Source: Chitinophaga pinensis
GTDB lineage: Bacteria > Bacteroidota > Bacteroidia > M30B66
Length of the DNA: 13,899 bases
Assembly: GCA_943333015.1 (NCBI GenBank)
Contig: CALQRR010000008.1
Span: forward strand, 1 to 13,899
Direction: 5' to 3'
The notes under the pieces: model-generated
What the model saw: the letters and a program-made list of their open reading frames with translations, nothing else
The model's database searches: none
Told to the model about the DNA's origin: nothing
Made by a program: the position numbers and the translations under genes
In this document: positions 896 to 12,937 of the stretch, one piece after another
Position numbering within the stretch: position 1 is the first letter of the stretch
How the letters are laid out: each line of letters begins with the position of its first letter

Positions 896-1579
896 TCAAA
901 GCGTTAAATCCCAGCGAATTCCTGTAATACAATCTGTTCGTGGATTGATCCCATAAACAGGTCGGTTGATTAGGTAATATAGGATGATTTCTGAATGTCT
1001 GTTATGGCGAAAATTAAGTCCGACATAACGCATGGTTCTGTCGGGGGCAAAGGATGTTTTTCCAGCAATCAAGACCGGCGAAAACAATTCAGCCATAGCA
1101 AAAGCGGACCAATGATAAGTGATTCGTTTTGATGCAAAAAAAAGTGTCCGGATATATTTTTCAGCATAGTTCCATCCATTCAAGGAGCTATTCACATCCC
1201 GATACTGCATCTGCCACCTAACTCTTGCCTGAAACGTCATTCCCAGCCATTGGCTCTGTCTACTGATATCTGCAAAAAAACGGTGCCGAAAACTGTAGGA
1301 CAAGTCGTTTCTTCTTCGCCCCATGAGGCGGTACATCACCGCGAACTTTGATTTCTTTGTAATCAAGCGATTGAACCCAACTTCAGAGCCCCAAGTGCCA
1401 ATCTCTGAGCAGTTTTCATCCAGACGAACGAATTGGTTTAGCTGAAGCGACAAGTTTTCTGTAAGCTTCTTCTCAACGTTCAGATTCATCCACAATCCGG
1501 CATCCTGGAATTGACAATGAAGATTCTCATTGAAACCAAGGATGCACGCGAGAAGAAATAATTGCCTAATGAAATTCAT
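896..1579 (-). CDS. DUF2490 family protein, predicted outer-membrane-type barrel
   Basis: This protein of 227 residues has an N-terminal hydrophobic signal (MNFIRQLFLLACILGF, cleavage probably near LHCQ). The mature part matches the DUF2490 pattern: an initial QDAGLWMNLNVEKKLTENLSL block with a Glu-Lys-Lys turn, then alternating aromatic/basic strands such as YSFRHRFFADISR and ARVRWQMQYRD, and a C-terminus ending GIRWDLTL with alternating hydrophobics. DUF2490 members are generally taken to be outer-membrane beta-barrels of unknown function in Bacteroidota. An upstream TTG at 1585 would add two residues, but ATG at 1579 is preferred. It overlaps the end of the preceding gene by 14 bases, so it is probably translationally coupled. 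It is the last gene of the six-gene operon. Membership is fairly clear; function is not known. Confidence 0.8.
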   Translation of the reverse strand: MNFIRQLFLLACILGFNENLHCQFQDAGLWMNLNVEKKLTENLSLQLNQFVRLDENCSEIGTWGSEVGFNRLITKKSKFAVMYRLMGRRRNDLSYSFRHRFFADISRQSQWLGMTFQARVRWQMQYRDVNSSLNGWNYAEKYIRTLFFASKRITYHWSAFAMAELFSPVLIAGKTSFAPDRTMRYVGLNFRHNRHSEIILYYLINRPVYGINPRTDCITGIRWDLTL

Positions 1580-2129
1580 AGTCAACAGATTTTTCCTGAA
1601 TCAATCGGCCATTTCCATCCTCCGTTTTTCGGGATATTAACAATCCGCGCTTGTTGTAGAGGTAGATAATCTTTTTTTTGAGTTGACCCGTTTTGTCAAA
1701 CTGAAGCTCTTCGGATTTATCTCCCCAAGCATTCCAATGTGTTTCTTCCACAAGAACGGAATCTCCAGCATGGCCGACACGTATTTTTTTTAGTGGCCTT
1801 CCACTTCCCGAATACGAATAATGCAAGGAGAATTGCAACGAATCATTGACGAAAAAATGCTCTTTAGTCAGCAATCCCTTTCGCGAATATTCAGAACGGT
1901 AGCATTCTTTCTGAGAACTGAACTGTTCACAGACTTCCAGTTCACGACCTTTTTTATCAAATACCCGGCTTGTTGTTCTTTTTTTAGGATCTGAATCAGC
2001 GTTTGATATTGTGGTAGTGCTGCTTTTTATTCCAGACCGTCGCGCCTCATTTTCGGATTGTGAGCTAGACTGTTGCGCCACGAAACAACTTAAAATTAGC
2101 AGGAAGAATTTGGCAGGAAGAAACTTCAT
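1566..2129 (-). CDS. small exported YD-rich protein, function unknown
   Basis: I do not recognise a named family for this 187-residue protein. An N-terminal signal peptide is clear (MKFLPAKFFLLILSCFVAQQ, cleavage likely after SSSQ near residue 24). A Ser/Thr-rich, low-complexity linker follows (about residues 25-50). The rest consists of short strand-turn units resembling RHS/YD or YwqK-like repeats: RVFDKKGRELEV, EYSRKGLLTKEHFF, LQFDKTGQLKKKIIYLYNK, YNKRGLLISRKTEDGNGRL. These look like four or five degenerate beta-hairpins with a central K-x-G turn. The protein is far too short for a full RHS shell and shows no toxin domain. Its ATG overlaps the stop of the lipoprotein gene (ATGA, 4 bases), and its end overlaps the DUF2490 gene by 14 bases. 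Its presumed location is the periplasm or cell surface. Confidence 0.75.
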   Translation of the reverse strand: MKFLPAKFFLLILSCFVAQQSSSQSENEARRSGIKSSTTTISNADSDPKKRTTSRVFDKKGRELEVCEQFSSQKECYRSEYSRKGLLTKEHFFVNDSLQFSLHYSYSGSGRPLKKIRVGHAGDSVLVEETHWNAWGDKSEELQFDKTGQLKKKIIYLYNKRGLLISRKTEDGNGRLIQEKSVDYEFH

Positions 2130-2878
2130 TGCAGGACGGTTATTAGTGGAATGTCGGCTGATTGAAAATTATTTTCGATGTAAATATCTTTTTTCACCGC
2201 AACCAATCCACCGGGGATGCTCATCGTGGAATCTTTCGAATACACATAAACCGAATAGGGCCCTTGTCTCAAATTATCAAAACGGTAGTATCCGTTATAG
2301 TCTGTTTTTATGCGCGTTGCGTATCCAACATTATGGCCATAGACCAAATACACATACTCATCGGCAAAAAAGAATTCTGAAAGCAACTGCGTAAATGTGG
2401 TATTGTAATCTCGTGCTTTCACACGTCCGGTTATACGAGCACCTCCTCCATCATCGGGTAGTTTGGTAACAATAAACGGATCCAATGTAACGTGTTCGTC
2501 TTTACCAATTTCAACCTGTTTAACCACACCATTTTCAGAGCCATTGGAGTCGGTGGCGTAGGCAAAAACGGTATAATTTCCAGGCCTCAAATACCGGAAT
2601 TCAAAACTTCCATCCTCACTTGTCTGCATGTTATCGTCAAACCCAACATGATCACCATAAATGAGATACACCCGCTGTGCATTGAGATAATCATCCGCTC
2701 CAACAGTTAGATTCGTGTCGTAGCAATTGCGGGCATACAAGCGTCCTCCAATGGACGATCTTCCTCCCGTTCCTTCAGGTTTTTCGCAGGACACAAAAAA
2801 GGTCAGCGCTGCGAGTGAAACGGTGAAAAGGAAGATTCTAATTTGTTTGATTCCGGACGTTCGAACGTTTGTTGTCAT
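2126..2878 (-). CDS. lipoprotein with two tandem carboxypeptidase-regulatory-like domains
   Basis: This 250-residue protein has a lipoprotein signal ending SLAALTFFVSC, with Cys31 as the probable lipidated residue followed by EKPEG. After a Gly-rich linker come two homologous units of about 90 residues (roughly 42-134 and 147-240). They align as RVYLIYGDHVGF / YVYLVYGHNVGY, EDGSFEFRYLRPGNYTVFAY / YNGYYRFDNLRQGPYSVYVY, then TDSNG / KDSTM and a trailing polar strand. The D-G-x-F-x-F-x-x-L-x-x-G-x-Y-x-V signature is that of CarboxypepD_reg or SdrD B-like beta-sandwiches, which are common on Bacteroidota surface proteins and in SusC N-termini. It is probably anchored to a membrane leaflet as a structural or binding module. 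It has ATGA overlaps with both neighbours (2875-2878 and 2126-2129), so it is tightly coupled in the operon. The ligand is unknown. Confidence 0.82.
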   Translation of the reverse strand: MTTNVRTSGIKQIRIFLFTVSLAALTFFVSCEKPEGTGGRSSIGGRLYARNCYDTNLTVGADDYLNAQRVYLIYGDHVGFDDNMQTSEDGSFEFRYLRPGNYTVFAYATDSNGSENGVVKQVEIGKDEHVTLDPFIVTKLPDDGGGARITGRVKARDYNTTFTQLLSEFFFADEYVYLVYGHNVGYATRIKTDYNGYYRFDNLRQGPYSVYVYSKDSTMSIPGGLVAVKKDIYIENNFQSADIPLITVLQ

Positions 2879-4470
2879 GTATTTTTTACAAGTTTCATGC
2901 GAATGATTGATCGCCCAATGAATTTGTCCATCAGGCGCTTGTGTAATGATTCAGATAATCGATACACGGTGTTTTCCATTTCGTGATCAAGAAAAACAAA
3001 GGGTTTTTGTGTAAGCCAGGCGCGGCAACATTGGAATGTAAACATAGCTTCGATTGACCAGTTTTCCGGATCTGGTTTCTGGGAGAAATCAATTTCTCCC
3101 ATGCCCATCTCGCTATAAAACGGCTGTATCAAATGCTCCTTTTTACTGTTTTTACTATACAACAGGGCATCGGAAAGTGTTTTCCCTGCGGGTGGAAATA
3201 ATTGGGTAATACAGGAAATGGATCGACGGAACTCATAGGAATCAGTGGCGTTCATTTGCTTCCCATTGATGCTCAGTGTTTCTTCTCCGTGAAGATCAAC
3301 CATCAATATTTTATTCATAAAACGCTGTATTTCCTGCGCATTTACGAAATGTATTTCTACACACGCTCCCTTTACAACCTTCAAAGAGATGGAGGTTGAT
3401 GAGCTAGTAACGATCTCTTTCAGCTCGAGAACCGTAGCGTCTGTCTTCTGAGTACTGGTCTGTTCGGCAGGTATACCGTTCGTTTCAGGAATCCATGCAG
3501 CAATCTTTTTTAGGGACGAAATGCCGGATGCCCAAACGGTATTTACTTTAATCGTTCTTCGTAAGACCGAAGAAATATTGACCAAGAGCATGAAAAAAAC
3601 AAGAATGATGACATTGTCATGCGTGCCAGTTTGGTCACGAAAAAACAATAGCACAATCATTAAAATGCATAAAATGGTCCATGGAAAAATCCGAACCAAG
3701 GCGTCGATGATTGATTGATAGTTGTTTTTTTGTTGAACGAGTGCGGCGCGTTTGGAATTTAGATCCTTGAATTTCTTAGGCTTGAGGCTATTCTTATTGA
3801 ATGCCCAATCACTGTAAAAAGAGGCAAATGATTCTTGAACAAATGCGAGGGTGCTAGATTTCCGATCTTTTATTTTCTGATCATACACATGTTGTTTCCG
3901 CTGAAGTAAAACAACAGGTATTGCAAAGAGCAACAGGGCTATTGAAACCACAAAAGCCATAACAGGATCTAGAAAAAAAAACAAAAACAGGCAACAAATC
4001 AGAAATACCATGTCGGAAATGAAACGGATAATGCCCTGTTCTATAAACAGCTCCACAGATCTAAGATTTCCGCTATATCGGTTTAAATATTTCCCATATG
4101 TTTTTTCAGAAAACCGCCCCCATTCCGCAGTTATTTGAGACGTGAAGAAACGCTCAAGGAGCTCATTGGTAACAGCTGTTGAGACACGGTGGCTTAACCG
4201 TGAAAACAGCAGCACAAGAAGAACCCGGCAAACAATTACGACAATAAATAAGACAACAAAATCAAGACTGGAGGTGCCGATTATCCCCGATTGTTCTAAA
4301 AAGCTTCCCCGTAGGGATTTTGTATGTAGTCCAAGTTGGTAAAATTTTCCAAGGCATAGAGGGAGGAATATTCCTGTTAAGCTCAAAAGAAATCCTGTCA
4401 AAAGCGCAAACGTGATGAGCACTTTCTCCTTGAGAAGGAAGAAACTTAAGAGCTTAGTATGATGGCGCAT
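2875..4470 (-). CDS. ABC exporter-like membrane protein with degenerate, probably inactive ATPase domain
   Basis: This 531-residue protein has type-1 ABC exporter architecture. About six membrane segments are seen near residues 17-40, 70-92, 152-168, 170-190, 260-278 and 286-304, followed by a domain (about 345-531) that aligns by position with a nucleotide-binding domain. The catalytic motifs are gone. The Walker A position reads FVNAQEIQR (375-383) with no Gly-rich loop or Lys. The signature LSGGQ position reads WSIEAMF (471-477). The Walker B strand FVFLDHE (491-497) keeps the Asp but has His where the catalytic Glu should be. No switch His follows (GRSIIRMKLV). A Q-loop-like Gln423 remains (CITQLFPPAGKTLSDAL). 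The frame is open and embedded in the operon (5-base gap upstream, ATGA overlap downstream), so it does not look like a decaying pseudogene. It may need an active partner or work without ATP; the substrate is unknown. Confidence 0.82.
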   Translation of the reverse strand: MRHHTKLLSFFLLKEKVLITFALLTGFLLSLTGIFLPLCLGKFYQLGLHTKSLRGSFLEQSGIIGTSSLDFVVLFIVVIVCRVLLVLLFSRLSHRVSTAVTNELLERFFTSQITAEWGRFSEKTYGKYLNRYSGNLRSVELFIEQGIIRFISDMVFLICCLFLFFFLDPVMAFVVSIALLLFAIPVVLLQRKQHVYDQKIKDRKSSTLAFVQESFASFYSDWAFNKNSLKPKKFKDLNSKRAALVQQKNNYQSIIDALVRIFPWTILCILMIVLLFFRDQTGTHDNVIILVFFMLLVNISSVLRRTIKVNTVWASGISSLKKIAAWIPETNGIPAEQTSTQKTDATVLELKEIVTSSSTSISLKVVKGACVEIHFVNAQEIQRFMNKILMVDLHGEETLSINGKQMNATDSYEFRRSISCITQLFPPAGKTLSDALLYSKNSKKEHLIQPFYSEMGMGEIDFSQKPDPENWSIEAMFTFQCCRAWLTQKPFVFLDHEMENTVYRLSESLHKRLMDKFIGRSIIRMKLVKNT

Positions 4471-4475
4471 TCGTT

Positions 4476-5519
4476 TTATACAAAGGAATTGTAGCCGACT
4501 AATTTCGCAGGTTTTGATGAACTTAAACCATCAAGATCAAAAACAGGCGTTTTACTTAGTTCTTCCACTTCCTGAATAAGCAAAGGGCTCATTGTAAACA
4601 ATCCACAAATAGCAAATGGCTTCAGATTTCGCTGCTCTAACCAGCTGATTCCCTGAATGGCAGAAAGACTATCTGCGCTTGAAAATAGGGTATTCGAGAT
4701 GGTTGAAGTGAAGACTGGATTATTCAACAACATACTTGTTTCGCGTTGATACAAACCATCGGCAATTTCCATAACGATGTAATCGAGATCAAACGGCGCC
4801 AAACGATTTAAAAGGGTCTGATAAATGGAAAGCAATTCTTCATCAGAACATAAAAACGTGGAAGGATATCCCAGATCACCAAAATCAGCCACCACATCGG
4901 CTCCGCAGTCAAATACAAAGTCTTTGTCCTTGGTGTAACAAGTCCCTGTTAATTTTATAAATCCAACTTTAGCACCCGTTCGTTTTAATCCGTGTACAAG
5001 AAATGCAGCGGAGGTTGTTTTTCCACTATCCATCGATGCTCCGAGCGAGAGGATAACACGTGTTCCCGATGGAACTGTTTGGGTATAAGGCTCCAACTGA
5101 TGACCAAGTCCAATGGTATTGATTACCTGTTTTGTGCCGGGCTCGCATACATAACCCATCAATTTCATCTTGGTTGGCTCAATATCTTCAAAGGCGGCAT
5201 TCTTGCTCTTCAAAACACCAACCACACCTCCAGCACCTAATATGTCAACTTCTAGCAAGGGCGTTTGAGGTACATATCCTTCGAATTGCGAAGTGGCGTA
5301 ACGATTCCCAAAAGCAGCTAGAATTAAATCGTTTTTCAGAATGGCTACATTGCGACCACTGTCTGACTGAATGACCCGATGCTTTCCAAGGGATGTTACT
5401 TCAAACAAACCAACATCTCCAGAGCGAGGAATATAGGTAGTGTTTAGATCTGATTGTATTTCATATGCATCAACATTTTTGCATACAATTGAACGTTTAA
5501 CACGGATTGGATTTGCCAT
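4476..5519 (-). CDS. P-loop NTPase of unassigned family (DUF1611/BioD-like C-terminal domain)
   Basis: This 347-residue protein is predicted to be cytoplasmic (no signal or membrane segment). The N-terminal half (about 15-140) is strand-rich, with YIPRSGDVGLFEVTSLGKH and EVDILGAGGVVGVLKSKN, and I cannot assign it to a family. The C-terminal half is a nucleotide-binding fold: a Walker A-like loop GASMDSGKTTSAA at 160-172 (Ala in place of the first Gly of the strict motif), then FIKLTGTCYTKDKDF (187-201), DCGADVVADFGDLGYPST (204-221), and a Walker B-like strand FDLDYIVMEIADGL (243-256). This order recalls the SIMIBI-class DUF1611 and dethiobiotin-synthetase-like proteins, but that is by eye. 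ATG at 5519 is the natural start. It lies 22 bases after the propeller gene and 5 bases before the ABC-like gene. Because that neighbour lacks ATPase motifs, this protein is the only recognisable NTPase in the operon; a functional link is inference. Confidence 0.75.
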   Translation of the reverse strand: MANPIRVKRSIVCKNVDAYEIQSDLNTTYIPRSGDVGLFEVTSLGKHRVIQSDSGRNVAILKNDLILAAFGNRYATSQFEGYVPQTPLLEVDILGAGGVVGVLKSKNAAFEDIEPTKMKLMGYVCEPGTKQVINTIGLGHQLEPYTQTVPSGTRVILSLGASMDSGKTTSAAFLVHGLKRTGAKVGFIKLTGTCYTKDKDFVFDCGADVVADFGDLGYPSTFLCSDEELLSIYQTLLNRLAPFDLDYIVMEIADGLYQRETSMLLNNPVFTSTISNTLFSSADSLSAIQGISWLEQRNLKPFAICGLFTMSPLLIQEVEELSKTPVFDLDGLSSSKPAKLVGYNSFV

Positions 5520-5541
5520 TTTCTTTCGTTTATTTTTCAGA

Positions 5542-8460
5542 TTATTCGACTACCAATGGCAGTGTTTTAGAGTTGTTTTCAAAAATTACGGTCAGAAAAT
5601 AGAGTCCCGCGTTCCAGTTGGTGGTCGGAATGAAGCCTTCTGAAAGAAGTGATTTTCCCGAGATAGAAAAGATCAAACGCCCAGTGGCATCGTGTATTTC
5701 TACTTTTATTGGCTGCGCATTCGGTTCGAATTTGATCCTCGTGTATGCATGCGCCGGGTTTGGCCAGATGCTGAAAGATTGGTTCGTTAGCGAATGAATC
5801 GTGGTGGTTTGGTCTGAATATTTTTGGAAATGGAGATTACTCATTCCGGGCGATTGTTCCGTATAGCCTCCCGTAAATACCACTCCTGTTCCGGAGAGCA
5901 CTTCCAATACTTCTCCTCCCGCTGATGCTTGAAAGTTGGGCAACCCATACCAGATGAGTGCCCCTGTTGAATTAAAACGAGCGGTCAATGGGGCGCTTTT
6001 ACCCAATGTGTTCGTTGCAGCTCCTCCTATCAGAATAATTCCACCCGTTTTAACCGTCAGACAATTGGCATATTCATTCACCGCTCCGGGGATAGTAACG
6101 GTTTGATTCCACTGCGATATCCCATCCGCAGCCCAGCAAGAAAGCAGTAAATCCAAATTAATAGTGAGAGAAGGATCTGAATCTGTTTGTCCAGCAACAA
6201 GGATCAATCCATCTTCATTGATTGCGATATCATTAAACCGGTCATCCGTTATACCGGATCCTCCATAGGTTCTGAACCAAGCCGTTTGGCCTGTGCTACT
6301 TACTTTCAGCAAGAGTGCATCGAGGTCAGTGCCGTTATACGTTCGCCCTGATACATAACAGTTTTCTAATCCGTCTAATACCAAGCCGGTGTTACGATCG
6401 TCGCCAAAGCCTCCACTCCAGGTATGCACCCACTGAACAATTCCAGTGCTGTTGTATTTCACAAGTAAGAGATCATCATCCAACCCATTGAATGATCTAC
6501 CGGCAACATATACATTCCCTGATGCCGCAATCACCAACCCTACCGGACGATCATCTGAATTAAACGTACTGTTATAGCGCACAGCCCAGAGTTGAGTACC
6601 GGCCGTGTTGTATTTGACCGTTACAAAATCATAGTTGGTCGTTATTCCAGGATCGCTGTCGCTATAACCCGTTATAACAATGTTGTTTTGAGGATCCAGC
6701 GCAATGGCGACAGCTCTGTCGGATGCGCCTGTTACAAAACTGTATTTTCTCGTCCAAAGGGTATCTCCTGATTGATTTAGTTTAATGGTTGTAAAATCAC
6801 TTCCTGCGTTTGAATTCTTCGTGTAACCAGTTGCGTATATATTACCACTGGCATCACACACAATAGCGGTGGCATTGTCTGTGCTTCCGGTGCTTGAATT
6901 CCCTGACAGTGTTTTTTTCCAAACCAACGTTCCCGCAGTGCTCGTTTTGGTAATACACATGTTAGGATCTTGGTCTTTTTCTAAGCTGAAGCCGGCACCC
7001 AATAAGGAGCCATCCGATGAAAAGCAAAGTGAATTGATCTGATCCTGATTATCCCCCTCCCCATCATATGTGCGTTCGAATTCTTTCGTGCCTGTCGAAG
7101 AAAACCGGATTAGTGTGGCATCGGGTTGTTGATTATTTAAGCTTTTGAAACCAGCTAAAATCGCCTTCCCATTTGCATCCACAATGCAGGCAGTTCCTTC
7201 GTCACTGTAAAGCAGAGCGCCTTCTGATTTTACAAACTGCTGAACGCCTGCGGCAGTATATTTTACTGTAATCCAGTCATTCACAACAGCAGTAGTTGCA
7301 TCTGCATCACTCAATCCGGTTACCCAAACCTCTCCTGTCGATGAAACCCCGATGGCTTCCGGTATATCATCGCCGCCGGCGGTTCCGCTGAACCGAGTTG
7401 CCCATTGTTGAATTCCTGTGGTAGTGTATTTAATGGTGACAAAATCATAGATTTTATTTGCTGTCAAATCACCATCACTCTGCCCGGTTACGTATGCATT
7501 TCCAGCAGCATCTATGACAATGGCCGTTGCACGATCGTCCCCCACATTATCATAAGTGGCGGTGTACAAAATTGTTCCAGCGGTGTTGTATTTAAGTGTT
7601 ACGATATCGTGGTCCGTACCGTTGCTTGAACGCCCTGTTAAATAACAGTTCCCCGACCCATCCATGGCCATGGCAATGCCTCGGTCATTGTTTCCACTGT
7701 CGTAGGTCCGCAGCCAGGTTTGTGCTCCGGTTGCTGAATATTTGATCAATAGATAATCATCATCACCATTATCCACACGTCCTCCGATGAAAATATCTCC
7801 CAAAGTGCTGATTTGTACTGTGCTTGCGCGATCAACTCCGTTGTTCATTCCATTGTATCGTTGCGACCACAACAAACTTCCGGCATTGCTGTATTTTAAG
7901 GTCAAAACGTCATCGTTGCTAACAAGGGATGATGGATCGGAATCACTGTATCCGGCAATGATGATATTCCCTGAATTGTCTAATGCAATAGAAGCAGGAA
8001 TGTCATCTTCATTCGCTGTTGTATAATTGAACTTTTTGGTCCAAACGGTATCCCCTGCACTGGTGAGTTTAATGGTTAGTATGTCATAACCGGTATAATA
8101 CCCTTTTGCAAATCCAGAAGCATAAATATTTCCTGAATTATCGGTGGTCAACGCCGTTATTTCATCCGGACCGCCATTTCCACCTTCCAGGGTGAACGAC
8201 CAAAGCGTATCGCCTGCGGTTGTGAATTTGACAACTAAAAAATCTTTATTGACTGTCTTTCTAATGGAGGATCCAGCGGCAATATAATTACCCGAATTAT
8301 CTTGCTTTAAACAGGTAAACTTATCCGAAAAATCGCCGATGCCATTTACATTGAGACTCCAGCTTTCGGCTATTTGCGAGTAAACGGTTCCAGAAAGAAA
8401 TAAAGAGAGCGTTACGAAAATCGGAAGAAACTTCCAGTGGGTGATTGGGGAGGAGGTCAT
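5542..8460 (-). CDS. giant secreted beta-propeller (SBBP-repeat) protein with T9SS sorting tail
   Basis: This 972-residue protein is the first gene of the operon. The signal peptide spans residues 1-29 (basic/hydrophobic, ending TVYSQ). Residues about 45-890 contain 16 repeats of roughly 50 residues with the pattern D-R-x-x-A-I-x-x-D-x-x-G-N-x-Y-v-t-G ... D-f-v-t-x-K-Y-x-x-x-G-x-x-x-W, the SBBP (Bacteroidota beta-propeller) type. The C-terminus (897-972) is a type A Por secretion tail: FSIWPNPAHAY, VEIHDATGRLIFS, NWNAGLYFLTVIFE and a final KTLPLVVE. It should therefore be exported by the type IX system and attached to the surface or released. Repeats 1-8 and 9-16 correspond one-to-one, implying duplication of an eight-repeat block. 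A TTG at 8484 would add eight residues; ATG at 8460 gives the better signal peptide. The ligand or activity is unknown; no catalytic domain is visible. Confidence 0.9.
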   Translation of the reverse strand: MTSSPITHWKFLPIFVTLSLFLSGTVYSQIAESWSLNVNGIGDFSDKFTCLKQDNSGNYIAAGSSIRKTVNKDFLVVKFTTAGDTLWSFTLEGGNGGPDEITALTTDNSGNIYASGFAKGYYTGYDILTIKLTSAGDTVWTKKFNYTTANEDDIPASIALDNSGNIIIAGYSDSDPSSLVSNDDVLTLKYSNAGSLLWSQRYNGMNNGVDRASTVQISTLGDIFIGGRVDNGDDDYLLIKYSATGAQTWLRTYDSGNNDRGIAMAMDGSGNCYLTGRSSNGTDHDIVTLKYNTAGTILYTATYDNVGDDRATAIVIDAAGNAYVTGQSDGDLTANKIYDFVTIKYTTTGIQQWATRFSGTAGGDDIPEAIGVSSTGEVWVTGLSDADATTAVVNDWITVKYTAAGVQQFVKSEGALLYSDEGTACIVDANGKAILAGFKSLNNQQPDATLIRFSSTGTKEFERTYDGEGDNQDQINSLCFSSDGSLLGAGFSLEKDQDPNMCITKTSTAGTLVWKKTLSGNSSTGSTDNATAIVCDASGNIYATGYTKNSNAGSDFTTIKLNQSGDTLWTRKYSFVTGASDRAVAIALDPQNNIVITGYSDSDPGITTNYDFVTVKYNTAGTQLWAVRYNSTFNSDDRPVGLVIAASGNVYVAGRSFNGLDDDLLLVKYNSTGIVQWVHTWSGGFGDDRNTGLVLDGLENCYVSGRTYNGTDLDALLLKVSSTGQTAWFRTYGGSGITDDRFNDIAINEDGLILVAGQTDSDPSLTINLDLLLSCWAADGISQWNQTVTIPGAVNEYANCLTVKTGGIILIGGAATNTLGKSAPLTARFNSTGALIWYGLPNFQASAGGEVLEVLSGTGVVFTGGYTEQSPGMSNLHFQKYSDQTTTIHSLTNQSFSIWPNPAHAYTRIKFEPNAQPIKVEIHDATGRLIFSISGKSLLSEGFIPTTNWNAGLYFLTVIFENNSKTLPLVVE
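5800..8328 (-). repeat. 16 tandem propeller repeats arranged as two matched blocks of eight
   Basis: The coding repeats are about 150 bases each at protein level, too diverged to be DNA-level tandem repeats. Block A is about 7045-8328 and block B about 5800-7044. Distinctive segments recur at a constant offset of 428-429 residues: GDTVWTKKF and GDTLWTRKY, AGYSDSDPS and TGYSDSDPG, GRVDNGDDDYLLIKY and GRSFNGLDDDLLLVKY, NCYLTGRSSNGTD and NCYVSGRTYNGTD. Confidence 0.75.
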
Positions 8461-8603
8461 GCAAACGGTTATGTCTGCTATCAAGACGGCGTTCCGAAAA
8501 AGTGGGTTGCATCACAAAACAAAACAAAAATTTGATTTTTTGTTTCCTTCACGCATTCGTGTCCTTCACCTAACTCAAGGGCTTGACTTTTAAGCGGAAT
8601 GTT
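8461..8603. other. 143-base gap between the asparaginase and propeller genes
   Basis: This gap must contain the end of the asparaginase transcript and, if the six-gene operon is independent, its promoter. It holds an A/T-rich inverted repeat (annotated separately). Just ahead of the ATG at 8460 the minus strand reads ACCGTTTGC, which keeps the TTTG of a -7 element but not the TA, so no promoter is called with confidence. Confidence 0.4.
8512..8545 (-). terminator. possible A/T-rich hairpin terminator after the asparaginase gene
   Basis: A perfect 9-base inverted repeat, AAACAAAAA at 8522-8530 and TTTTTGTTT at 8537-8545 with a 6-base loop, lies about 60 bases past the asparaginase stop. On the minus strand it is followed by TTTTGTTTTG, a U-rich tail. 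The stem has only one G-C pair, so it would be a weak terminator; it could instead be an operator-like palindrome in front of the propeller operon. Confidence 0.35.
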
Positions 8604-9632
8604 TCATCTATAAATGCTCACTTCAGGAATTCCGTCCATCCGAATAACTCCCCTGTACATACCCTTGGTAGTAAAATGCATAGCGACTTCTCCAGATGGA
8701 GTTACTCCAATCATTCCTCCACGACCGCCATTGGGCTTGATTACCTGTTCAAGTGTTTCACATACTGCAGTCTGTAATGACCCGCCTGTGTATTTTAATC
8801 GCATTGCTACATCATAGGCCGCAACAGCCCGAATAAATGATTCGCCTTGTCCGGTGCAGGAAATAGCGCATGTTTTATTATCGGCCCACGTGCCAGCGCC
8901 AATCAACGGCGAATCGCCAATCCGACCATATTTCTTATTGGTCAATCCTCCTGTTGAAGTTGCTGCAGCAAGATTCCCCTCTAAGTCGAGGGCAACGGCT
9001 CCAACAGTACCATATTTTTGGTTCTTTTCATCTATGACTTGGCCTGTTGTATCAATTGTTCCCTGATGGTCAAGTTCTATCTTATCTGCTTCGATTGCTC
9101 GTTGTAATTGGTTATACCGAAATTCCGTTGCGAAATAGCTGCTGTCTTCAAACGGCAAACCCTGTTCTTTGGCAAATTGCTCAGCACCTTTTCCACACAG
9201 TAGAACATGTGGTGAGTTTTCCATGACAGATCTGGCTGCCTGAATGGGGTTTTTAATACCTTCAACACAGGCCACCGCTCCAGCCTTTCCCGATCCGGAC
9301 ATGATTGCAGCATCCATTTCAATTCTGCCGTCGTGGGTAAATACAGATCCTTTTCCAGCATTAAATAGCGGAGAATCCTCCAGTATTTTTACGGATTTTT
9401 CTACTGCATCCAAACTTGTGCCTCCCGCTTTCAACGCGTGATATCCGACCAACAATGCGTTTTTCAGCACTGCTATATAGGCCGCTTCCTGCTCGGGGGT
9501 AATGGTTTTTTTATCCATTGTTCCCGCACCTCCATGTATGACTAAAACGTAATTACTCGGGCTGACTATGGGTTGAGAGTTTGCATGCATCGCCAATAAA
9601 AGTAACAAGGATTGAATGATGTAAAGTTTCAT
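8604..9632 (-). CDS. exported isoaspartyl peptidase / plant-type L-asparaginase (Ntn-hydrolase)
   Basis: This 342-residue enzyme precursor has a signal peptide (MKLYIIQSLLLLLAMHANSQ). The family removes isoaspartyl residues from peptides and hydrolyses asparagine after autocleavage into alpha and beta chains. The family fingerprints are all present. They include the early VLVIHGGAGTM strand, NAGKGSVFTHDGRIEMDAAI, and the cleavage site KYG|TVGAVALD with the nucleophile Thr at residue 209. The substrate-binding GRIGDSP (Arg237, Asp240) and CTGQGE (Thr260, Gly261) follow at exactly the spacing seen in E. coli EcAIII (Thr179, Arg207, Asp210, Thr230). It should be active. I chose ATG at 9632 over ATG at 9641 because it leaves a 20-base gap to a TACATTTG promoter element and gives a cleaner signal peptide. 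It is divergent from glyS and on the same strand as the propeller operon but separated by 143 bases. Export suggests a role in scavenging peptides or amino acids outside the cytoplasm. Confidence 0.93.
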   Translation of the reverse strand: MKLYIIQSLLLLLAMHANSQPIVSPSNYVLVIHGGAGTMDKKTITPEQEAAYIAVLKNALLVGYHALKAGGTSLDAVEKSVKILEDSPLFNAGKGSVFTHDGRIEMDAAIMSGSGKAGAVACVEGIKNPIQAARSVMENSPHVLLCGKGAEQFAKEQGLPFEDSSYFATEFRYNQLQRAIEADKIELDHQGTIDTTGQVIDEKNQKYGTVGAVALDLEGNLAAATSTGGLTNKKYGRIGDSPLIGAGTWADNKTCAISCTGQGESFIRAVAAYDVAMRLKYTGGSLQTAVCETLEQVIKPNGGRGGMIGVTPSGEVAMHFTTKGMYRGVIRMDGIPEVSIYR

Positions 9633-9652
9633 CAGATGCATTAATCTACTTG

Positions 9653-11350: not shown

Positions 11351-11515
11351 ACTAGGCTGGACAACAATGTGGACAAACGCAGGACGCCATCGGCCCATGT
11401 GAATTGTCTGTATCTGTATGTAATCTAGGAGCTGAAATAGGCAATTTGACGCCCCATTTGACCGCAACCTTCTCTTCCGAATCACGGTAAACCTAACCTG
11501 ATTAAATTGAAGCAT
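11351..11515 (+). other. 165-base leader region of the PAS-receiver gene
   Basis: This stretch between the glyS terminator and the PAS gene has no credible ORF. It should contain that gene's promoter. TTTG occurs at 11445-11448 (GCAATTTG) and 11457-11460 (CCCATTTG), but neither has the TA of the -7 consensus, so no promoter is called. TTG at 11507 is in frame with the gene but ATG at 11516 is preferred. Confidence 0.4.
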
Positions 11516-12937
11516 ATGCATCTTTTATCCGATTTGGAGAAATTATCACTGGTGGCAAGTCGTACAGAAAATAGTGTCATCATCACTGACCGTGATCGCC
11601 GGATAGATTGGGTGAACGAGAGCTTTTGCCGCAAGACGGGATATAGTTTGGAGGAAGTGAAAGGCAGAAAACCATCTGAGTTCCTGTTCGGACCCGATAC
11701 CAACATGCAAAAAGCATCTGAGATCAGTGCAAAGCTCGATCGCGGTGAATCCCTCAGGGAAGAGCAAGTCAATTACACCAAACACGGTCAACGTTTTTGG
11801 GTCAATATGGATATTTCTCCTGTAGTAGATGAAGCAGGTGAAATTACTGGATTCATAGCCATTCAATCGGACATTACGCTTCGGAAAGAACAAGAGCAGA
11901 AACTTCGCAGAAGCTGGAAAGAATACGACGAAATATACGAGCAAGCTGTTATGCCGATGTGTTTTACCACTTCGGAAGGCATCTTTGTCCGCGTAAATAG
12001 AGCCTATTGCGAACTCTTCGAATGCAGTCGGGAAGAGTTGTTGGGCAAAGACTTTATGGAAGTGCATTTTGGACAACTCTCCTCTGCAGCCAAAGAAGAA
12101 CTGCGCAAGGAAACGCAACTGGTAACACTTCAACACGACACGTCCAAGAAGGAACAACGTTTTTGCTCCTTCCGCGGAAAGCCATTGGTGGTTGAGGTTA
12201 TTCGTAAAATGGTGGAAGTAAACGGATTGCCCGTCGTTTCCATTTACATGGTTGATTCTACTGAAAAACGGGATTTCCAATTACGCATCCTGGAACAAAA
12301 CAAACGGCTGAAGGAATTTGCATTTCTGACATCCCATAAACTTCGTCAACCCTTAGCCAATATTCTCGGACTGATTGAGCTGGTGAAAAGCGAATCTCAT
12401 GCCCTTCAGGATGTGACGATTACTCTTGAAACGCTACGCATGCTCACCGGCCAGCTCGATGGTGTTGTGCATGAAATGGGACAGGCATTGGCCGAGTTAG
12501 ATGTGGAAGTGGAGAAAAGTCTCTTCCTCAACGAGCATGCAGATCAGCGCATTCATAATGTGTGGATTGTGGACGATGATCAAGTGATTACCTACATCAC
12601 GCAACGTTTAATGAAAAATGCTGATCCAACAGTAAAGGTGACAGAATTTCTGAGCGCCAAAATGGCCTTGGAGAAGTTACGTCTCGACCCGTCTCAGCCC
12701 GATATTCTTTTGCTCGATATCAATATGCCCGGCATTACCGGTTGGGAGTTTCTCGAGGAATTACGAGCAATGCATCGGTTTGTGAATGTGTACATGTATT
12801 CCTCTTCCATCGATCCGGAAGACGTGAAAAAAGCCCGCAGCTATCCCATGGTGCGCGATTTTCTCTCCAAACCCGTCGACATGGAAACGGTTCGAAATCT
12901 CTTATCGATACCGATTATCCGCAGTCAGGTTTCCTGA
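11516..12937 (+). CDS. PAS-PAS-DHp-receiver signalling protein lacking a histidine-kinase ATPase domain
   Basis: This 473-residue cytoplasmic protein has four modules. PAS 1 spans about 10-125 (NSVIITDRDRRIDWVNESF ... GFIAIQSDITLRKEQ). It has GRKPSEFL where LOV domains have the flavin-binding NCRFL, so it is not a LOV photosensor. PAS 2 spans about 135-252. A DHp-like helical segment lies at about 258-330 with an H-box SHKLRQPLANILGL (His274). Directly after this, with no HATPase domain, comes a receiver domain (about 347-468) with VWIVDDDQ (acidic Asp353-355), DILLLDINMPG (phospho-acceptor Asp401), YSSS and LSKP (Lys452). The receiver looks functional, but the protein cannot phosphorylate itself without an ATPase domain. 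It may relay phosphate from another kinase or act as a non-kinase scaffold. It has no output or DNA-binding domain. The gene follows the glyS terminator and precedes the methyltransferase gene by 54 bases. Confidence 0.88.
   Translation: MHLLSDLEKLSLVASRTENSVIITDRDRRIDWVNESFCRKTGYSLEEVKGRKPSEFLFGPDTNMQKASEISAKLDRGESLREEQVNYTKHGQRFWVNMDISPVVDEAGEITGFIAIQSDITLRKEQEQKLRRSWKEYDEIYEQAVMPMCFTTSEGIFVRVNRAYCELFECSREELLGKDFMEVHFGQLSSAAKEELRKETQLVTLQHDTSKKEQRFCSFRGKPLVVEVIRKMVEVNGLPVVSIYMVDSTEKRDFQLRILEQNKRLKEFAFLTSHKLRQPLANILGLIELVKSESHALQDVTITLETLRMLTGQLDGVVHEMGQALAELDVEVEKSLFLNEHADQRIHNVWIVDDDQVITYITQRLMKNADPTVKVTEFLSAKMALEKLRLDPSQPDILLLDINMPGITGWEFLEELRAMHRFVNVYMYSSSIDPEDVKKARSYPMVRDFLSKPVDMETVRNLLSIPIIRSQVS

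Follow-up and report, generated by a model that had tools for sequence, protein, structure and literature searches.

A conserved gene module linking a P-loop protein to an ABC-exporter-type permease with an eroded ATPase domain in Chitinophaga pinensis and related loci

The first 13,899 nucleotides of contig CALQRR010000008.1 from the Chitinophaga pinensis assembly GCA_943333015.1 (hereafter the window, part of a draft genome of 2.19 Mb that is 80% complete) carry, on the minus strand between positions 896 and 8460, six tightly packed genes for a P-loop protein, an ABC-exporter-type permease and four envelope proteins, with an asparaginase-like gene next to them. This gene set is a real conserved module, whose members co-occur far beyond chance. 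It combines a co-conserved gene order, a P-loop protein with an intact Walker A motif, a permease that has eroded and is nonetheless under selection where close pairs exist, an asparaginase-like protein with an intact catalytic motif, and a propeller protein with a sorting tail for the type IX secretion system (T9SS). The interpretation that we tentatively prefer, with rather less than even confidence, is that the module spans the envelope and serves to make, export and trim a conjugate derived from an amino acid. The genes and their main parts are as follows, with the short names used below:

8604 to 9641, minus strand: ASP, exported isoaspartyl peptidase / plant-type asparaginase (Asparaginase_2), intact
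5542 to 8460, minus strand: PROP, exported SBBP / delta-60 beta-propeller with a T9SS type A sorting tail, ATG start
4476 to 5519, minus strand: PLOOP, two-domain P-loop enzyme with no Pfam family over cut-off
5070 to 5519, minus strand: N-terminal beta-rich domain of PLOOP, residues 1-150
5013 to 5042, minus strand: Walker A motif of PLOOP, residues 160-169
2875 to 4470, minus strand: ABC, ABC-exporter-type permease with an eroded nucleotide-binding domain (NBD)
2875 to 3402, minus strand: eroded NBD remnant of ABC, its last about 175 residues
2126 to 2878, minus strand: LIPO, lipoprotein with two tandem CarboxypepD_reg / prealbumin-like domains
1566 to 2129, minus strand: YD, small exported YD-rich protein
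896 to 1579, minus strand: DUF2490, putative outer-membrane barrel, ATG start

Gene layout and conservation of the module

With ATG starts at 8460 (PROP) and 1579 (DUF2490), the list of open reading frames (ORFs) reproduces to the base the six minus-strand genes of the initial annotation and the spacings of 22, 5, -4, -4 and -14 that it gave from PROP to DUF2490; the domain labels that it attached to them are upheld by Pfam and NCBIfam. A longer alternative ORF for PROP begins at a TTG at 8484, and an alternative TTG start for DUF2490 at 1585 would make its junction with YD -20. The ASP stop codon and the PROP ATG are separated by a gap of 143 bases in which a promoter could sit; promoter- or terminator-like sites at the locus show no excess over shuffled sequence, and co-transcription of the genes is unproven.

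A profile of PLOOP homologues scanned against one genome per species yielded 189 confirmed loci. The best 80 were examined with flanks of up to 10 kb, and the neighbouring ORFs were grouped by BLAST into single-linkage clusters over 91 loci (these 80, the window and 10 further loci). The records are mostly metagenome-assembled genomes (MAGs), some of them apparently misnamed, and the loci are therefore taken only as mostly Bacteroidota; because some are near-duplicates (e.g. L049/L051, L046/L054, L035/L036 and L034/L047), locus counts do not represent independent events. PLOOP is directly followed by ABC in 70/80 loci, and the orders DUF2490-PLOOP-ABC, PROP-PLOOP-ABC and PROP-PLOOP-ABC-ASP are seen in 36/80, 26/80 and 6/80, respectively. 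PROP lies immediately 5' of PLOOP in 27/80 loci, 26 of which have ABC next while one ends at a contig edge. The exact order PROP-PLOOP-ABC-LIPO-YD-DUF2490 recurs in 18/80 loci, the PLOOP proteins of which are 46-57% identical to that of the window; ASP directly follows DUF2490 in 17 of these 18, and in the window it is instead found upstream of PROP. Across the 80 loci the gene run contains DUF2490 in 63 and ASP in 37. The direct PLOOP-ABC pair is missing from nine PLOOP-bearing loci (L043, L047, L066, L079, L087, L095, L101, L106 and L107), in four of which ABC is still part of the run (L066, L095, L101 and L106), and in one further locus (L092) no PLOOP ORF was called. Membership of the clusters over the 91 loci, window included, is 88 for PLOOP, 80 for ABC, 67 for DUF2490, 41 for ASP, 30 for PROP, 23 for LIPO and 22 for YD.

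The genes do not scatter in distant relatives, and many loci repeat both their order and their close packing; scattering would have spoken against the shared function proposed in the initial annotation. The functional unit differs from the six genes of the initial annotation: ASP belongs to the module too, and PROP, LIPO and YD are additions found in part of the family. The deep core of the module is DUF2490, PLOOP and ABC. A PLOOP tree built by a quick method has 84 rows, five distant rows being left out; over the 78 rows that carry a state, the presence of PROP changes 3 times, with no direction inferred.

At E-values up to 1e-20, PLOOP was detected only in the window's own genome among 60 relatives searched, nine of the other 59 being members of the same family. 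In a phylum-wide sample 28/247 genomes gave PLOOP matches at E up to 1e-5. These total 30 matches, only six of which, window included, are better than 1e-40; they comprise the window, five near relatives, three copies adjoining an M20-family peptidase (L008, L009 and L010), one unplaced copy (L029) and 20 members of a sister family in arginine operons (see below). At E up to 0.001 the whole PLOOP family numbers 1747 members, probably including this sister family. The module is patchily distributed, as might be expected if it were mobile or frequently lost, and that such a rare module yet keeps a fixed order argues for a joint function.

Loss of the ATPase domain in the ABC permease

The window ABC protein matches ABC_membrane (PF00664, 48 bits vs a cut-off of 28) and has six hydrophobic segments, and ABC_tran is not matched in Pfam. 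In the aligned columns its Walker A reads EIQ, its Walker B DH and its signature SIEA, and the H-loop falls in a gap; none of the hallmarks of an ATP-driven exporter (Walker A GxxxxGK[ST], Walker B D-E, LSGGQ and the H-loop histidine) is found. All scored motif columns being dead, the protein is catalytically degenerate, as the initial annotation had described it.

NBD states were read from one alignment for the 79 loci with a PLOOP-ABC pair among the 91 examined, with "intact" referring to Walker A and B only. On this reading both motifs are intact in 30/79 loci, and 25/79 retain one motif or, at a minimum, the Walker A lysine; the NBD is dead in 13/79, including the window, absent in 10/79, which thus encode a transmembrane domain (TMD) only, and truncated by the contig end in 1/79. 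The H-loop histidine is retained in just 3/68 NBD-bearing proteins (L064, L066 and L116) and LSGG in 2/68. On the PLOOP tree, again with no direction inferred, absence of the NBD changes 4 times, and intact versus not intact 14 times. Between 4 and 6 hydrophobic segments were counted in each of the ten TMD-only proteins. Over up to 1.2 kb downstream of their genes, a search that in a control recovered 36/38 eroded NBDs found no remnant of an NBD.

The low ratios of nonsynonymous to synonymous substitution (dN/dS) show that the TMD-only and partial ABC genes are not pseudogenes and are under purifying selection where close pairs exist. With saturated pairs left out, such pairs cover the TMD-only, partial and intact classes, and none of the dead class. 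The ratio is 0.14 for the TMD-only genes in two pairs from three related loci, while for the NBDs it is 0.04-0.13 in five partial pairs vs 0.09-0.15 in four pairs counted intact; the TMDs give 0.03-0.14 and PLOOP 0.02-0.13.

Two known transporter types offer comparisons. The ABC protein shares ABC_membrane with the Type IV ABC exporters (MsbA-like), its nearest solved relative being a multidrug ABC transporter (5mkk, matched along part of the TMD at E 5.8e-4), and departs from them in the dead NBD motifs of the window and the missing NBD of 10/79 loci. Pfam holds an SbmA-type family, which was not among the matches of the window proteins at E up to 1. A similarity of another kind links the permease to SbmA/BacA (SLiPT), the ABC-type TMD of which works without an NBD: PMC13316013 describes SbmA as a proton-driven importer with an ABC-like TMD and no NBD. 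However, SbmA imports peptides, and the window ABC protein still has an NBD remnant.

The P-loop protein and its sister family in arginine operons

PLOOP has no Pfam match over cut-off; below it are AAA_26 (16.4 vs 27 bits), MobB and DUF1611 (PF07755, 14.2 vs 25 bits). The protein consists of an N-terminal domain, which found no match when searched alone against the PDB, and a BioD/DUF1611-like NTPase domain. Several of the closest folds are enzymes, and its fold relatives include DUF1611 proteins (2obn, 2g0t, 7xrj), one of them titled N-acetyltransferase DgcN. It differs from DUF1611/DgcN in falling below the PF07755 cut-off, and its alignments with these proteins begin only at model residue 81-97; PF07755 itself has no match in the window's own genome. 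From BioD it differs in its extra N-terminal domain and its gene neighbours, and no BioD family is listed for it in NCBIfam at E up to 1. Median identity over all pairs is 48% for PLOOP, 26% for the TMD and 27% for the NBD; between the window and the other loci the corresponding values are 48%, 22% and 17%. The Walker A residues K167 and T168 are invariant in 79/79 paired loci, including all 10 that lack an NBD, and the same holds over the 79 for K189, T191, D198, E251, D254, G255, E260 and R73.

A sister family (e.g. L120:9016-10110), here called arg-type, lies between argG and argC in 20/20 copies (L011-L028, L030 and L031), these being all the copies found in 244 genomes at E up to 1e-40 with an arg-type protein as query. 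Homology between PLOOP and the arg-type proteins extends from residue 29 to 328 and takes in much of the PLOOP N-terminal domain (hhalign probability 99.3, E 2.8e-20); by eye, they have in common a GK, a K-x-[ST]-G, an [RK]-D and several acidic positions. Pfam confirms the argG, argC, argD and argF' domains in the operons of L120 and L121, the second of which also encodes an M20 peptidase and a Lyase_1 protein, and a match to an ArgB-like kinase was obtained in the arg-type operons. ArgJ is present in 1/20 arg-type genomes, and ArgA (TIGR01890) exceeds its cut-off in 0/20. All 20 give sub-threshold TIGR01890 matches, 21/33 rows covering the kinase part and 12 rows, from 11 genomes, the GNAT part (best E 4.5e-12). 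These matches are unspecific, because 14/14 control genomes give them likewise, and they leave room for another synthase in the arg-type genomes. From the position between argG and argC, an N-acylglutamate synthase could be expected there. The GapMind study (PMC7311316) reports no candidate for ArgA or ArgJ in Bacteroides thetaiotaomicron; as N-succinylglutamate synthase it proposes BT3761, which shares more than 50% identity with Cabys_1732, the synthase of Caldithrix. On the strength of sequence and context, the arg-type sister is a candidate N-acylglutamate synthase that may represent another solution beside BT3761.

The constancy of PLOOP next to a decaying permease raises an alternative, namely that PLOOP, as a SIMIBI-type NTPase, binds to the ABC-fold permease and drives it as a substitute motor for the eroded NBDs. 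The retention of the Walker A lysine and threonine at the NBD-less loci, the tight PLOOP-ABC adjacency and the absence of NBD remnants downstream of the TMD-only genes are all in line with it. However, PLOOP is equally invariant beside ABC proteins with intact Walker motifs, and its conservation is therefore independent of NBD loss; the sister family in arginine operons, with no permease seen beside it, and the enzymes among the closest folds point to an enzyme instead. We regard the motor as unlikely.

Proposed function and its alternatives

ASP gives a full-length match to PF01112 (369.6 bits), its nearest solved relative is the L-asparaginase precursor 2zak (E 7.9e-84), and its GTVG motif, the threonine of which is presumably catalytic, is invariant in 28/28 aligned proteins. 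While it resembles the isoaspartyl peptidases / plant-type asparaginases in this match and in the motif, it differs from them in having an exported form tied to the module: by eye, 26/28 alignment rows begin with a hydrophobic or lipoprotein-like segment, L095 and L114 being the exceptions. In L114, where the signal-like start is lacking, and in L115 the ASP homologue directly follows PLOOP, and genes for arginine decarboxylase and an arginase-family protein lie a few kb from PLOOP. PROP contains PF06739 and TIGR02608 domains, and its T9SS type A tail, at about 5563-5769, is recognised by both PF18962 (35.5 bits vs 27) and TIGR04183 (35.5 vs 23). LIPO matches PF13620 (43.6 bits) and bears the lipobox FVSC. 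It does have the two domains ascribed to it by the initial annotation, though these are not the family norm: both halves match the same single domain of its relatives, which share a common start after the lipid cysteine and are 128-178 aa long in 21/22 cases and 239 aa in one (L106). By its sequence the window LIPO carries this domain twice through tandem duplication, against one copy, judged by length, in those 21. YD, with relatives in 22/91 loci (window included), shows a sub-threshold match to RHS_repeat (14.7 vs 22 bits). Every part that could be assigned falls into a known fold class; YD and the N-terminal domain of PLOOP could not be assigned.

The window DUF2490 protein matches PF10677 with 40.2 bits vs a cut-off of 29.8, and PF10677 also matches 50/53 family members scanned out of 70 in the cluster. 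The family (TC 1.B.81) appears in PMC4827864 as putative porins of unestablished function, and one DUF2490 gene is included in an iron-response table of PMC10434189. The window protein agrees with these porins in its family match and is distinguished by being fixed to a P-loop/ABC operon. Two loci bear on its role: in L064 (a Nitrospirota MAG, 3433-7508) an Alginate_exp outer-membrane protein follows PLOOP-ABC instead of DUF2490, and in the deep relative L116 (3822-10867) a PAP2 phosphatase, PLOOP, a canonical ABC exporter, DUF2490 and a PGA_cap plus M36-like protein form one run. This replacement and this run suggest that DUF2490 provides the exit through the outer membrane.

The conjugate-export interpretation introduced at the outset draws on the fixed gene order, the arginine-operon context of the sister family, the DUF1611/DgcN fold relatives, the ASP motif, the PLOOP-ASP adjacency of L114 and L115, the outer-membrane proteins that accompany PLOOP in L064 and L116, and the selection on TMD-only permeases. 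In this scheme PLOOP would use ATP or acyl-CoA to acylate or conjugate a glutamate- or aspartate-like amino acid in the cytosol. A dimer of the ABC-fold protein would pass the product over the inner membrane without ABC-type hydrolysis; like SbmA, it could be a carrier of the gradient-driven or facilitated kind. Passage over the outer membrane would fall to the DUF2490 barrel. ASP might then hydrolyse isoaspartyl-type bonds of the exported product or of its targets, and in the clade of the window the T9SS propeller, LIPO and YD may hold or display the product at the surface.

The same outer-membrane and capsule-related proteins could instead indicate a polymer or capsule module, with a polyamino acid or polysaccharide as product and PLOOP as its synthase or length regulator. 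The PGA_cap protein of L116, which we take to be of the CapA/PgsA type, the Alginate_exp protein of L064 and a nucleotidyl transferase in L066 would fit this picture, and an isoaspartyl peptidase could serve as depolymerase; but each clue comes from one locus of 91, and no polymerase, Wza, Wzc or glycosyltransferase was found among the flank proteins scanned (a minority of flank clusters is annotated). We consider it about as unlikely as the motor. Less probable still is a signalling or stress module, in which the ABC remnant and PLOOP sense the state of the envelope and nearby genes for extracytoplasmic function (ECF) sigma factors, FecR and TonB-type proteins are the output. Such genes are indeed found near some of the loci (ECF sigma clusters 7 and 12 in 18 and 7 of the 91, FecR cluster 9 in 10, OMP_b-brl_3 cluster 8 in 16); they vary, however, in orientation and distance, the ten proteins scanned from the window include none of them, and genes of these types are common in the phylum. 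Finally, that the genes merely hitch-hike on a mobile element without joint function, as their patchiness might suggest, is highly improbable, given that the same order and overlaps persist in many loci whose proteins have diverged by about 50%, with the core selectively retained, and that no integrase or transposase occurs among the flank proteins scanned.

In kind, the module resembles trans-envelope transport. The view of the initial annotation that no described system has this composition is borne out in the literature searched (few subscription papers covered), where none turned up and where DUF2490 and DUF1611 are each named in 2 papers, and PADLOC models of anti-phage defence match 0/7 proteins at E up to 0.01. 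A bolder proposal, to which we give a small chance, sees in the module a new transport class: the ATPase of an ABC-fold permease would have been lost on several occasions, and a dedicated SIMIBI-type amino-acid-conjugating enzyme would load or drive this permease. The sister family of that enzyme would be a so far unrecognised N-acylglutamate synthase that serves arginine biosynthesis elsewhere in the phylum. The module is conserved, unnamed and testable as one unit, and it offers ABC exporters caught in nature at many points along the loss of their ATPase, with the partner genes retained. It also links a widespread unnamed P-loop family, via the argG-argC sister, to amino-acid acylation, and that sister could account for the initial reaction of arginine synthesis in as many as 19/20 sampled genomes. 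DUF2490, for its part, gains a fixed genetic context. Elsewhere in the window, 11507-12937 encodes a protein with two PAS domains and a response-regulator domain, in which HisKA is matched below threshold and Pfam lists no ATPase domain.

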